NCBI GenBank assembly: GCA_020161355.1
Contig: JAIUOF010000003.1
Location: forward strand, 310,001-374,000
Direction of reading: 5' to 3'
DNA: 64,000 nucleotides
Source of the DNA: Bacteroidota bacterium
Lineage (GTDB): Bacteria > Bacteroidota > Bacteroidia > Cytophagales > Spirosomataceae
Shown here one piece after another: positions 42,974-47,617 of the stretch. The notes under the pieces are model-generated. The model saw only the letters and a program-made list of their open reading frames with translations. It was not told the origin of the DNA and made no database searches. Each line of letters begins with the position of its first letter. Position 1 is the first letter of the stretch. The translations under genes were made by a program, and so were the position numbers.

Positions 42974-43041
42974 TTTATATAAAGTTTTGCATTAGTGTTA
43001 TTTTTAAAAAAAAAGTAAACTCAGGTTTCTAAAAAAATCCA

Positions 43042-43368: not shown

Positions 43369-43474
43369 AGCCGCTTTTTCAGGTTGGTGTCAAAAAAACT
43401 AAAAAGTAAACTGCCGTAAAATAAAAAATTTCGTATGTTTACTTTTCAAGAAAAAAAACACTAATCACTGAACA

Positions 43475-43996
43475 GTGACGGAAATAGAGAATTTAAAAAA
43501 GCGGGACAGTAAGACACTGGAGCGGATTTATACTTCGTATCGTAACGGATTTTTGATGTTTGCCTCAAAGTATAATTTACCTGAGGAAGACATTTTGGAT
43601 ATATATCAGGATGCTATCGTGGCTCTTATTGAAAATGCCGAAAAAGGAAAGCTCGACGGGTTGTCCGCAGAGCTAAAAACTTATCTTTTTTCGATTGGCA
43701 AGTATATGATTTTTGCCAAAATAAGAAAAAGAAAATCCGATTTTACAGAAATAGAAACCCTGCCTGAAGCTATTGAATGGCCTGAAATTGAGGAGAAGAA
43801 TGATCAAATCAGCCAACTGGAAAGTAGTTTGAAAAAGCTTGGTGAACAATGCTACAAGATCCTTAAGCTGTTTTATTATGAAGAAAAAAAGCTGGACGAA
43901 ATCATGAAAATGCTGCCGTATCAGTCAAAGGATGTGCTAAAAAGTCAAAAAGCGAGATGCTTGAAGCAACTCAAAAAAATGTTATCGAATAACTAA
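43475..43996 (+). CDS. ECF-like RNA polymerase sigma factor
   Basis: 173 residues, an alternative sigma-70 family factor: region 2 (LERIYTSYRNGFLMFASKYNLPEEDILDIYQDAIVALIEN) and region 4 (LGEQCYKILKLFYYEEKKLDEIMKMLPYQS.DVLKSQKARCL). It starts with GTG at 43475. The next gene, a membrane/TPR protein that looks like its anti-sigma factor, follows after one base, so activity would be controlled by that protein. Confidence 0.9.
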   Translation: MTEIENLKKRDSKTLERIYTSYRNGFLMFASKYNLPEEDILDIYQDAIVALIENAEKGKLDGLSAELKTYLFSIGKYMIFAKIRKRKSDFTEIETLPEAIEWPEIEEKNDQISQLESSLKKLGEQCYKILKLFYYEEKKLDEIMKMLPYQSKDVLKSQKARCLKQLKKMLSNN

Positions 43997-43997
43997 A

Positions 43998-44692
43998 ATG
44001 GAAGACCTGATCAACAAATATTTTGAGAAATCACTAACCGAAAAAGAGTTGGCAGATTTTTATCAAAAACTGGAAACCGAGCCCGAATTTAAAGCAGAAT
44101 TTGAGTTTCAAAAATCGGTGCAAACCGCTTACGCTCAAATGAAAGAGCCGAACTCAAGAGTCTTGTATCGAGTTTTGAGAAGCCGAAACAAAAAAGCATT
44201 TGGTGGAAATATGCCGCAGCGGCGGTAGTTGTCATATTAGCTGGAGTCGGGATTTTTTCTTATCTAAATTTGAGCAAAAGCAACGAGGATTTGTATCTGG
44301 CTTATTACCAAACTTACCCCAACGTGGTAGCACCCAACGTGAGAGGTGAAAATAAGAACAACTTTAAAAATGAGGCTTTCAGAGCTTATGATACCGAAGA
44401 TTACAAAGAAGCCATAAGATTGTTTTCCCAAATTAAAAACGAAGAATTTGCAGTTTTTTACTCGGCGGTTTCTTATCTGGAACTTGATGAAAACCCAAAA
44501 GCCATTCAAATACTCGAATCTGGCAAATTTAGTGATAGTCCATATCCATTTGAAACTTACCGAAAATGGTATTTGGCTTTAGCCTACCTGAAAACCAATC
44601 AAAAAGAAAATGGAAAAAAGATTTTAAAGGAACTTGTGGAAAGTGAAAATCCACAAAAAGAAAAGGCTATGGAGCTTTTAAGCAGCTTTTGA
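43998..44692 (+). pseudogene. Frameshifted anti-sigma-like membrane/TPR protein
   Basis: The first frame gives a cytoplasmic N-terminus (MEDLINKYFEKSLTEKELADFYQKL) to about codon 48, then loses sense. The +2 frame continues with NERAELKSLVSSFEKPK, a membrane helix (WWKYAAAAVVVILAGVGIFSYL) and two TPR-like repeats to 44692. Adding one A to the CAAAT at 44136-44140 joins both parts into a 231-residue protein of typical layout for Bacteroidota sigma/anti-sigma gene pairs. The total length, 695 bases, is one short of a multiple of three. Either a real inactivating deletion, a frameshift event, or a sequencing error. Overlaps the convergent CHAT gene by 15 bases. Confidence 0.8.
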
Positions 44693-47617
44693 TCTGGTTT
44701 TGAAATAAAATAAACCAGTACCCAGTATCGCTACCAATAATGCTGCCCCAGCATATAGCAACCAATTTTGAGGCTTGGAAAGCGACGATACATCACCGTT
44801 AAGAATAAATCCTGACCAATAATAAGGATGACTTTTTAATGGATTTTTCTTTATAAATTGCCTTTTTGCTTCCGATAATGCCAAATCTTTCGATAAACCA
44901 TCAGAAAGATATTGATAAAAATACCCCATCAACTCGGCGGTTTCTTTGTCAGGCACTTGCCAGAGACTATGAACCAGTGATTTAACGCCTGCATAATTCA
45001 AAGCCCGACTTATACTCATAAGCCCCTCACCGTTCTGAAATTGGCCTACTCCCGTGTTGCAAGCACTCAAAACCACCAATTCTGACGGAAAATTCAATGC
45101 GTATAATTCTCTAAAATATAGCTTCTCCGAATTCTGAAACAATAAACTCGACTGCTCGTAGTCGTTATCGTTGAGTAATGAGTGCATGGCTAAATGATGA
45201 ATCTTACTCTGACCGATGCTATTCAAAAAGTTTTGTTTGGTGGCCGACCCACTTTTAAATATTTGGGAATTTCGGAATGTTTCAGCGATTTTTTCTAATT
45301 CAGAACCAGTATATAGCAATTTTCCATTCAGGTCTCTTGATGCTAATACGTTTTGGCTATATTCGGGAGCAAACCCTGTAAGATTAAGACTATAATCGCC
45401 TGATTTTGATGACGATTCATTCCAAAGTCTAAATGAATAATTGTAAGAAATGTCCGTTTTTGATAATAGCAAATTACCATTTCTGTCGGTCAATGTTTCA
45501 AACGGAATATAGCTCAAGAAATCTTCGGTGATGAAGTCTGTTTTTTCAGAATTGATTTTGAGGGGCTCAATCAAAATTCGATATAATTCTTTTGATAAAT
45601 TACCAAACCCGAAGTCAATTTTTGAAAGTTTTTGATAATAATCATCGCTTAATTTTTTGACACTTTCCTTTGGTCCAAGTTCACGAACCTTTATATCATT
45701 ACCGGAAATCACGTGAGCAAAAACTGTACTATCGCTTACGGTATATTTTACGATAATTCTATCGTTTTTGAGCTTTAGCTGTATCACTTTTATATCAAAA
45801 TTAGATTCCGAAAACCGTTTAAAATCAGGGTTTTGTTGATATAACTCATTTTCAATTTTCACTAACTCTATTTTGGCTGATTCAAGTTCAGTTGTTCCAA
45901 CTTTCCCCGAATTTTCGAGTGAATTTATTCTTAATTGCAATTCATTTTTCTTACTCAAAAGTTCTTTAGAAAGATTCAGATTTTCCTCATTTTTCAATAT
46001 GAATCGCTGCCAAAGATGCTGAGAACCAATACTTTCGAGCATATTCAGCGAGACATAAAGTTCGGTTTTATCCGTATTATTTTTAGCATCGGCATAGAGC
46101 AAACCTTCTTTAATATTTCTTAGATACTGATCAAGTGTTGGATTAAAAATGCCTTTTCGATAATATCTTTCAAACATAGCCGCTGCCAAATAATAGAAAT
46201 GCTTCATGATCTTCAAATCGGCCTTTTTCCGGCCATTCAATTCATAAATTTTTCTATAAGCCAAGCCTGAGTGAATAAAAATATTGATATAATAAGTTGA
46301 AGAAATATCTCCAAAATCAGAAACCTGGATTTGAGAAAAGTTTCTGTCTTTTTTAATCATCAATTTATAAACTTCCTGCAAAACCTTGATGGCCTCAACC
46401 GGTCGATTAAGATTAGCCAATAATTCAGCCTTGAGTATGCTTAATGTCAAAAAACTTGTGCCTTTCCCATCATAACTAAGTGATTTGAGGCTATTTTTAG
46501 TAAAGTTGAGCGATTTCGAATAAACTTTTTGCTCGTAATGAATCATAGCATACGCAGCTTGTGCCTTCATTTTTTCAAAATCACTTTTTGCAATCTTTTC
46601 CGAAATGGCATTGAACCTCAATGCATTTGCAAAGTCTCCTTTTGTTCGCGAGGCATAAGATGCAGCATCATAGGCCGCAGGTAAAACATAAAATTCTTTT
46701 TCGTAATAATCTTTGGGGCAATTTTTGAAAATTTCTTCCAGTGAATTTAAATGGAAATTTATTTTGGAGAGCTCATAAAACTGACCGTAGAACCGAACAC
46801 TGCTCAGGTGAAACATCGTGCGGGCGTGTATGTCATCATGTTTGCCTTTTGGTGTAAATTTACCACTCGAAAAACGCAAGAAATGTTCGTTCATGATTGC
46901 TTCAAATTCCTTCTGCAACTTTTTGGTTTTATCCAAATCACCATAACTCAAAAAATCATAAATTGTATTATTGTAAGAAGACGATAAGATATCTACATCT
47001 TGACGGTAGTACTTAGACCAGATTTGAAGTGACTTCTCATTGATGTTTAAAGCCTCTCGTATCAATCCGACTTTATCATAACTAAATGCCAAATTGTTGT
47101 ATGCCAAAGCTGTCGCATAATGATTTTGCATTTTATTGGACTCAAGTACTTTAATGGCTGATTTATAAACATTTACTGCATCAGTATATTCACTATTTTC
47201 GCCTAATTCAATTAGCAGGATTCCATCATGTATAGTTTTTTTTCGCTTTACACCTTCCAGTTTTTTCAGAAAATCAACCGCTTCACTCCATTTTTCTTGC
47301 CCACGCAATACCCTCGCTTGGGTGAGATTTATATAGAATTCAATACTTTTCTTTTTTGTACTTTTCTTGTAATCAGCTAAAACTTTTTCAAATAAAGTTT
47401 TAGCTTTTTCAATCTCTTGCGATTGTAATAAAAAATTAACTTGGGCATTATCTAAAAGAATCCGGTTTTCGGGGATATTCTGCGGTGAGGCTTTTCTCAG
47501 AACGATTTCTTCTTTGTAGTATCCACAAAAGTGAAGGCTATCGGCTTTGAAAACCAAGTTTGATTGTGAAAAAACAGAATTTGAAAATAATAAGAATATA
47601 AATATTGCTGTCTTCAT
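44678..47617 (-). CDS. Secreted/anchored TPR-CHAT protein
   Basis: About 979 residues from the ATG at 47617 (signal peptide MKTAIFIFLLFSNSVFS). Residues 20-500 are TPR repeats, then a coiled coil, then a CHAT domain with caspase-like His (HHLAMHSL) and Cys (VLSACNTG), followed by a C-terminal membrane helix (LLYAGAALLVAILGTGLFYF) and short basic tail. CHAT domains are caspase-like proteases, often switched on by TPR-sensed signals. An upstream start at 47707 is rejected because it would bury the signal peptide. It is convergent with a sigma/anti-sigma pair. Confidence 0.9.
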   Translation of the reverse strand: MKTAIFIFLLFSNSVFSQSNLVFKADSLHFCGYYKEEIVLRKASPQNIPENRILLDNAQVNFLLQSQEIEKAKTLFEKVLADYKKSTKKKSIEFYINLTQARVLRGQEKWSEAVDFLKKLEGVKRKKTIHDGILLIELGENSEYTDAVNVYKSAIKVLESNKMQNHYATALAYNNLAFSYDKVGLIREALNINEKSLQIWSKYYRQDVDILSSSYNNTIYDFLSYGDLDKTKKLQKEFEAIMNEHFLRFSSGKFTPKGKHDDIHARTMFHLSSVRFYGQFYELSKINFHLNSLEEIFKNCPKDYYEKEFYVLPAAYDAASYASRTKGDFANALRFNAISEKIAKSDFEKMKAQAAYAMIHYEQKVYSKSLNFTKNSLKSLSYDGKGTSFLTLSILKAELLANLNRPVEAIKVLQEVYKLMIKKDRNFSQIQVSDFGDISSTYYINIFIHSGLAYRKIYELNGRKKADLKIMKHFYYLAAAMFERYYRKGIFNPTLDQYLRNIKEGLLYADAKNNTDKTELYVSLNMLESIGSQHLWQRFILKNEENLNLSKELLSKKNELQLRINSLENSGKVGTTELESAKIELVKIENELYQQNPDFKRFSESNFDIKVIQLKLKNDRIIVKYTVSDSTVFAHVISGNDIKVRELGPKESVKKLSDDYYQKLSKIDFGFGNLSKELYRILIEPLKINSEKTDFITEDFLSYIPFETLTDRNGNLLLSKTDISYNYSFRLWNESSSKSGDYSLNLTGFAPEYSQNVLASRDLNGKLLYTGSELEKIAETFRNSQIFKSGSATKQNFLNSIGQSKIHHLAMHSLLNDNDYEQSSLLFQNSEKLYFRELYALNFPSELVVLSACNTGVGQFQNGEGLMSISRALNYAGVKSLVHSLWQVPDKETAELMGYFYQYLSDGLSKDLALSEAKRQFIKKNPLKSHPYYWSGFILNGDVSSLSKPQNWLLYAGAALLVAILGTGLFYFKTRSKAA

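Follow-up and report, generated by a model that had tools for sequence, protein, structure and literature searches.

What could an extracytoplasmic function (ECF) sigma factor, a membrane protein with tetratricopeptide repeats (TPRs) and a secreted CHAT protein be doing side by side in the genome of a Bacteroidota bacterium? The three genes occupy positions 43475-47617 of a 64,000-nucleotide stretch from a member of the Spirosomataceae (contig JAIUOF010000003.1, positions 310,001 to 374,000), which we call the window and whose numbering is used throughout; other loci and genomes are cited by L and G numbers. We consider it probable that the trio is a transmembrane switch in which the CHAT protein serves as the site-1 protease, cutting the anti-sigma factor and so freeing the sigma factor. 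In the proposed mechanism, a single-pass anti-sigma would hold the ECF sigma factor through its cytoplasmic N-terminal domain and carry a TPR domain on the outer side of the membrane, and the secreted TPR-CHAT protease would be fixed to the same membrane via its C-terminal helix. An envelope signal would then lead the CHAT protein to cut the anti-sigma in the short segment that separates the membrane from the TPRs, directly behind a conserved residue (Arg in modules of the window type), and the remaining stub would pass to an RseP-like site-2 protease and to cytoplasmic proteases, releasing the sigma factor to act on its presumed regulon. Sensing or docking may fall to the long TPR arm of the CHAT protein and to the TPRs of the anti-sigma. 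Computed directly were the conserved linkage of the genes, their architecture, an invariant site in the anti-sigma, the covariation of this site with the S1 pocket of the protease, and two M50 (PF02163) protease genes in the same genome, one of which, at 444 amino acids, is of RseP size.

The sigma and anti-sigma genes follow one another on the forward strand, with these parts:

43475-43996, forward strand: ECF-type sigma factor of 173 amino acids with a GTG start, above the TIGR02937 cut-off.
43998-44228, forward strand: 5' part of the anti-sigma gene, encoding the predicted N-terminal cytoplasmic helical domain (from translation; intact in the orthologue at L169).
44210-44266, forward strand: transmembrane segment of the anti-sigma, YAAAAVVVILAGVGIFSYL (from hydropathy and orthologues; helix 77-99 in the orthologue model).
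44342-44344, forward strand: juxtamembrane Arg codon within YPNVVAPNVR/GEN, where the slash marks the proposed cut; proposed P1 residue (from conservation and S1-pocket covariation).
44345-44692, forward strand: predicted extracytoplasmic TPR domain of the anti-sigma through the stop codon (Pfam TPR_6/TPR_19 and fold match).

The initial annotation was right to name an ECF-like sigma factor, since a profile search against TIGR02937 gives 62.5 bits (cut-off 42.9). The Pfam profile for sigma-70 region 2 scores 22.8 bits against a cut-off of 24, and 25.4 bits for the orthologue at L169, which shares the GTG start and its surrounding context; structures matched by a profile of the module sigma factors are SigW, SigH and RpoE. 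The middle protein runs from an N-terminal helical domain through basic residues and a transmembrane helix to the TPRs, and from this order the TPRs and the protease are predicted to share one side of the membrane. Their fold resembles the periplasmic TPR domain of YbgF. A fold search with the N-terminal domain returned no clear anti-sigma factor, the matches listed being TPR proteins. The build of a single-pass anti-sigma, namely a gene right after the sigma gene, an N-terminal helical domain and one transmembrane segment, is seen in the orthologues; the window copy has a broken frame, to which we return below.

Tail-to-tail with this gene, and overlapping it by 15 bp, lies the CHAT gene:

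44678-47617, reverse strand: TPR-CHAT protein of 979 amino acids, with a predicted periplasmic location and a predicted C-terminal anchor (from profile and structure model).
47564-47617, reverse strand: signal peptide MKTAIFIFLLFSNSVFSQ (from sequence).
44792-45598, reverse strand: CHAT peptidase domain, residues 674-942 (PF12770).
45299-45301, reverse strand: codon of Glu773, proposed as a further acidic residue of S1, where a helix begins after the first strand.
45182-45184, reverse strand: codon of the catalytic His812, conserved among the compared CHAT domains.
45059-45061, reverse strand: codon of the catalytic Cys853, likewise conserved among them.
44948-44950, reverse strand: codon of Asp890 in the motif LWxVxD, the proposed P1-Arg-binding Asp, 37 residues past the Cys (41 in human separase).
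44702-44764, reverse strand: C-terminal transmembrane anchor with a short basic tail, KTRSKAA (from sequence; a C-terminal transmembrane segment is associated with sigma linkage).

PF12770 matches this protein with 174 bits (E 5e-51, cut-off 24 bits), and His812 and Cys853 supply the caspase-like pair, which bears out the earlier description of a convergent secreted CHAT protein. Because it has both a signal peptide and a C-terminal hydrophobic helix with a basic tail, the protease is predicted to reside outside the inner membrane with that helix as its anchor.

Do these genes belong together? The genome that contains the window, of Lacihabitans type and 4.8 Mb in size, carries about 21 TIGR02937-type sigma genes at 37 bits or more, and all four of its CHAT genes have a sigma gene and a transmembrane TPR gene convergent at their 3' end. 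Those of the other sigma genes that could be read are followed by other types of gene and none by a TPR anti-sigma of this build; the linkage within this genome is far above chance. CHAT genes were detected in 7 of 10 genomes of the genus, 64 of 81 of the family and 190 of 392 in a sample of the phylum, copy number within the genus being patchy, from zero to four per genome. For 187 distinct CHAT genes the flanking sequence sufficed for a linkage count: a sigma gene lies within 1.5 kb of 44 of the 83 that encode a C-terminal transmembrane segment, whereas this holds for 9 of the 104 that do not (Fisher p 1e-11, uncorrected for relatedness). This criterion undercounts linkage, as in the congeners G003 and G004 the sigma and anti-sigma genes are about 6-8 kb from the CHAT gene, which is found across a neighbouring OmpA cluster, the genes for sigma factor, anti-sigma and DUF2490 protein having kept their place. 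The catalytic His and Cys are present in every sigma-linked CHAT protein (66/66), and the 42 convergent modules have one intervening gene of 195-272 amino acids, nearly always with one transmembrane segment. Aquimarina and other Flavobacteriaceae have the same partners in divergent layout, and Spirosoma, Pedobacter and the Chitinophagaceae in a single operon. The grouping made by the initial annotation is therefore conserved in several families and in three gene arrangements (convergent, divergent and same-strand). In the congener G002, the anti-sigma is a remnant with stop codons and a CHAT gene was not found (loci of these three congeners: L161, L170, L364, L365 and L367). The partners are thus kept through rearrangement and lost together, which argues for a functional unit.

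Where would the protease cut? In 38 convergent modules picked by gene geometry alone, whose anti-sigmas have a median pairwise identity of 18%, an Arg occurs in 37 and is the most conserved of 191 scored columns. A conservation count on sequences already labelled as Arg-type was set aside as circular, and the geometry-defined set was used instead. This Arg is placed soon after the transmembrane helix, on the predicted extracytoplasmic side and ahead of the first TPR; it corresponds to the R in the window sequence YPNVVAPNVRGEN. A structure model of an orthologue (predicted local distance difference test, pLDDT, 89) has only one long non-helical part, residues 112-130 between the transmembrane helix and the TPRs, and this stretch holds the Arg. 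On comparison of these sequences we propose that the CHAT protein cuts after this Arg, which would make it the P1 residue. Alternatively, the trio could be a caspase-like module for cell death or defence, whose activated CHAT protein would cleave many proteins while the sigma factor would raise the response. This could account for the patchy copy number in the genus, and CHAT proteases do occur in immunity systems such as Craspase. We nevertheless judge this very improbable, given that PADLOC returned only generic MotB/OmpA and receiver-domain similarity for the trio and eight nearby genes, and that the predicted periplasmic location and the conserved site in the partner favour one main substrate.

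The fold of the protease points to a matching pocket. The nearest structures to these CHAT domains are Csx29 and the separases; the window CHAT model (pLDDT 80) has Csx29 as its best structural match (Z 32) and superposes on separase 5fby with a root-mean-square deviation of 3.1 over 312. By sequence, TPRs dominated a PDB search with the complete CHAT alignment, the CHAT domain alone recovered Csx29 and DdvA, and the single window CHAT domain as query gave no match. Separases cleave after Arg, which is bound by a salt bridge from a conserved Asp (human Asp2070, Chaetomium Asp2151) (PMC10317155), and a modelling study puts forward Glu917 of the C. elegans enzyme as a further conserved acidic residue (PMC4626109). 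We propose that Asp890, at the start of a helix in LWQVPD and 37 residues past the catalytic Cys, is the equivalent of the Asp that binds P1 Arg in separase, an equivalence drawn from position and motif. Glu773 is likewise proposed to occupy the position expected for the other acidic residue in a separase or gingipain pocket.

Does the pocket change with the site? The juxtamembrane residue is Met in a large operon-type clade (47 rows, L195 counted) and Gln in a clade of Flavobacteriaceae (7 rows, mostly Aquimarina) whose sister Aquimarina retain Arg. With site and S1 column aligned by program and three rows corrected by hand, a site with Arg or Lys is matched by an S1 Asp with a single exception and a site with Gln by Glu in 7/7, and Met-site modules have Asn, Glu, Asp, Thr or His; within Aquimarina itself, Arg pairs with Asp and Gln with Glu. 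The S1 Asp column ranks first of 302 CHAT columns in a class-specific constraint scan and first of 307 in a tree-aware scan on a tree built with this column masked (p 1.6e-4 before scan correction), having changed once on the Arg part of the tree (branch length 45.6) against 13 times on the rest (26.8). Second among the 307 is the column of Glu773. The Asp and Glu pair is found in 48 of 54 Arg/Lys rows, or 48 of 51 once three Lys rows of Runella inside the Met clade are set aside, and in none of the 47 Met-site or 7 Gln-site modules, Gln sites mostly having Glu and Lys. At the position of Asp890, Csx29 has Ser, in agreement with the Met type here.

This covariation could in principle arise among mere neighbours, the sigma factor controlling the CHAT gene with no contact between enzyme and substrate and the pattern reflecting two old lineages (Arg and Met) that differ widely. 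ECF genes often adjoin genes under their control, the independent switches are few, and further clade-specific columns exist. We find this account improbable, however, on three counts: the top two of 307 columns are those with a known or modelled role in P1 Arg binding by separase; the same pattern recurs independently in the Gln clade and in L195; and the genes are mostly convergent instead of sharing one promoter in an operon. Contact of another kind is the subject of a further alternative, in which the TPR anti-sigma would act like securin, inhibiting the CHAT protein as its anchor or pseudosubstrate, the real targets would be other envelope proteins, and the sigma factor would adjust the dose. 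Securin inhibits separase via the same pocket (PMC10317155), and a pseudosubstrate site touching S1 would covary just as a substrate site would. The P1 residue of securin, however, is not Arg, whereas Arg-type anti-sigmas bear the very residue that separases cut (PMC10317155), and the Arg site is exposed and juxtamembrane, as site-1 cuts of other anti-sigmas are; we give the securin-like arrangement a small chance as well.

Several observations weigh against the CHAT protein as site-1 protease of the anti-sigma. Beneath the covariation lie about three independent losses of Arg (the large Met clade, the Gln clade and L195), and a paired-branch sign test has two to three concordant and no discordant cases, too few for significance. 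L133 is an exception with an Arg site and Asn at S1, 13 Met-site CHAT proteins retain the S1 Asp, the Met of the Met class is aligned one column beside the Arg, and the site class of L155, L192 and L189 was set by hand after misalignment. Many CHAT genes, some encoding a C-terminal transmembrane segment, have no sigma gene nearby, and 70 of about 90 CHAT proteins of this kind have the Asp and Glu pair, so that specificity for Arg extends beyond this pairing and may be ancestral, and some of these proteins may have other substrates. The window copy of the anti-sigma gene is itself frame-broken. The invariant juxtamembrane Arg and the S1-pocket covariation nevertheless lend strong, if indirect, support to sigma release by proteolysis, a model that the initial annotation called attractive but unproven, and from them we infer the cleavage.

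The broken frame bears on whether the switch operates in the sequenced strain:

within about 44118-44156, forward strand: one-base frame break of the anti-sigma gene (from DNA alignment with the syntenic orthologue at L169 and reading frames).

The frame from 43998 stops at 44226-44228, and the part encoding the transmembrane segment and TPRs continues in another frame to 44692 with no good start; relative to L169, the window copy is one base short. L169 is syntenic with the window, having LytTR, sigma, anti-sigma, CHAT and DUF2490 genes in the same order. The membrane-TPR protein of the initial annotation is encoded by a single intact open reading frame in congeners (G003, G004 and G008; loci L169, L364 and L365), and in the window is not one open frame. 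As the gene is also unbroken in all other convergent modules surveyed, programmed frameshifting was rejected; instead of a conserved frameshift, the break is either a fault of the assembly or a mutation that arose recently. In this genome another CHAT gene (L003 62-2358) is also split across two overlapping frames, through assembly indels or decay, which makes assembly indels more likely for the window break too. Should the break be real, all that the strain could make of the anti-sigma would be a soluble piece of the domain predicted to bind sigma. Either the sequence of the switch is in error, or the switch does not function as intended in the sequenced strain.

An inverted repeat, AAAAGTAAAC-N25-GTTTACTTTT, occurs at 43402-43446 (also 43011-43020) in the gap that separates the sigma gene from the divergent LytTR gene, and the repeat in this gap is conserved in the congener loci L169 and L364. 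A further half-site is found upstream of the OmpA operon, giving four half-sites in the window against 0.42 expected. The repeat is possibly a site for the LytTR protein or another regulator that ties the three units together. Other modules have further neighbours. In a flavobacterium (L197 1046-2373), small open reading frames with a common N terminus, MKKSILNLGKALNKAEQKNISGG, which resembles a double-glycine leader, stand beside sigma, anti-sigma and tandem CHAT genes, and at L140, L144, L155 and L156 additional pairs of a sigma factor and a transmembrane protein of another type adjoin the CHAT module.

How far might this reach? On balance, we lean towards a widespread envelope pathway of Bacteroidota in which separase-like periplasmic proteases make the site-1 cut in TPR anti-sigmas, and in which a two-residue pocket code would predict CHAT specificity (Asp and Glu for Arg, Glu and Lys for Gln, an uncharged second position for Met). 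CHAT genes are present in about half of the sampled Bacteroidota genomes, and bacterial CHAT substrates outside CRISPR are little known. If the proposal is true, the protease, substrate and cut residue of a common pathway would be named, CHAT specificity could be read off the sequence by a rule, a separase-like enzyme would be placed outside the cytoplasm, and the circuit of CHAT protease, inhibitor and sigma factor would gain a second, non-CRISPR setting. A literature search that covered few subscription papers found no description of a two-gene module of TPR anti-sigma and anchored CHAT protein or of a code linking site and pocket.

The closest known circuit is that of Craspase, where the CHAT protease Csx29 cleaves the sigma inhibitor Csx30 at residues 427-429, a cut for which M427 is needed (PMC10028731). 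Like the window module, the Craspase/CASP locus of type III-E CRISPR combines a TPR-CHAT protease, an ECF-like sigma factor (CASP-sigma) and a sigma inhibitor. However, Craspase is cytosolic and triggered by RNA via Cas7-11, whereas the window module has a signal peptide, membrane anchors and a transmembrane TPR anti-sigma, and Csx29 has Ser where the window CHAT protein has Asp890. PADLOC gave no Cas7-11/gRAMP or CRISPR match among the eight neighbour genes, a Cas profile search of the whole window not having been made. A CHAT domain is also borne by DdvA, the cognate anti-sigma of the ECF sigma factor DdvS, described with Myxococcus xanthus CarD (PMC4374960), whose solved chain (PDB 8rot, 8rw5) is titled a transmembrane anti-sigma factor. 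There, anti-sigma and CHAT domain share one polypeptide, unlike the two separate, mostly convergent genes of the modules examined here, and this fusion supports the pairing of CHAT and anti-sigma. ECF54 sigma factors have CHAT, subtilase and carboxypeptidase genes nearby, and proteolytic control has been proposed for them (PMC8999054). They resemble the Met-type operons, in which a subtilase gene (PF00082) stands between anti-sigma and CHAT genes in 3/3 examined (L164 8697-10409, L167 8560-10041, L171 8691-10247), but ECF54 was described without an anti-sigma (PMC8999054), whereas every module here has a transmembrane TPR anti-sigma. As in the RseA-DegS-RseP cascade, an extramembrane site-1 cut of a single-pass anti-sigma followed by a site-2 cut is proposed here, although the site-1 enzyme would be a clan CD CHAT protease instead of a PDZ serine protease. 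With separase, the window protease shares a C-terminal clan CD domain after helical repeats, a structural match and a proposed Asp for binding P1 Arg, whereas separase is eukaryotic, cuts cohesin and has no membrane anchor.

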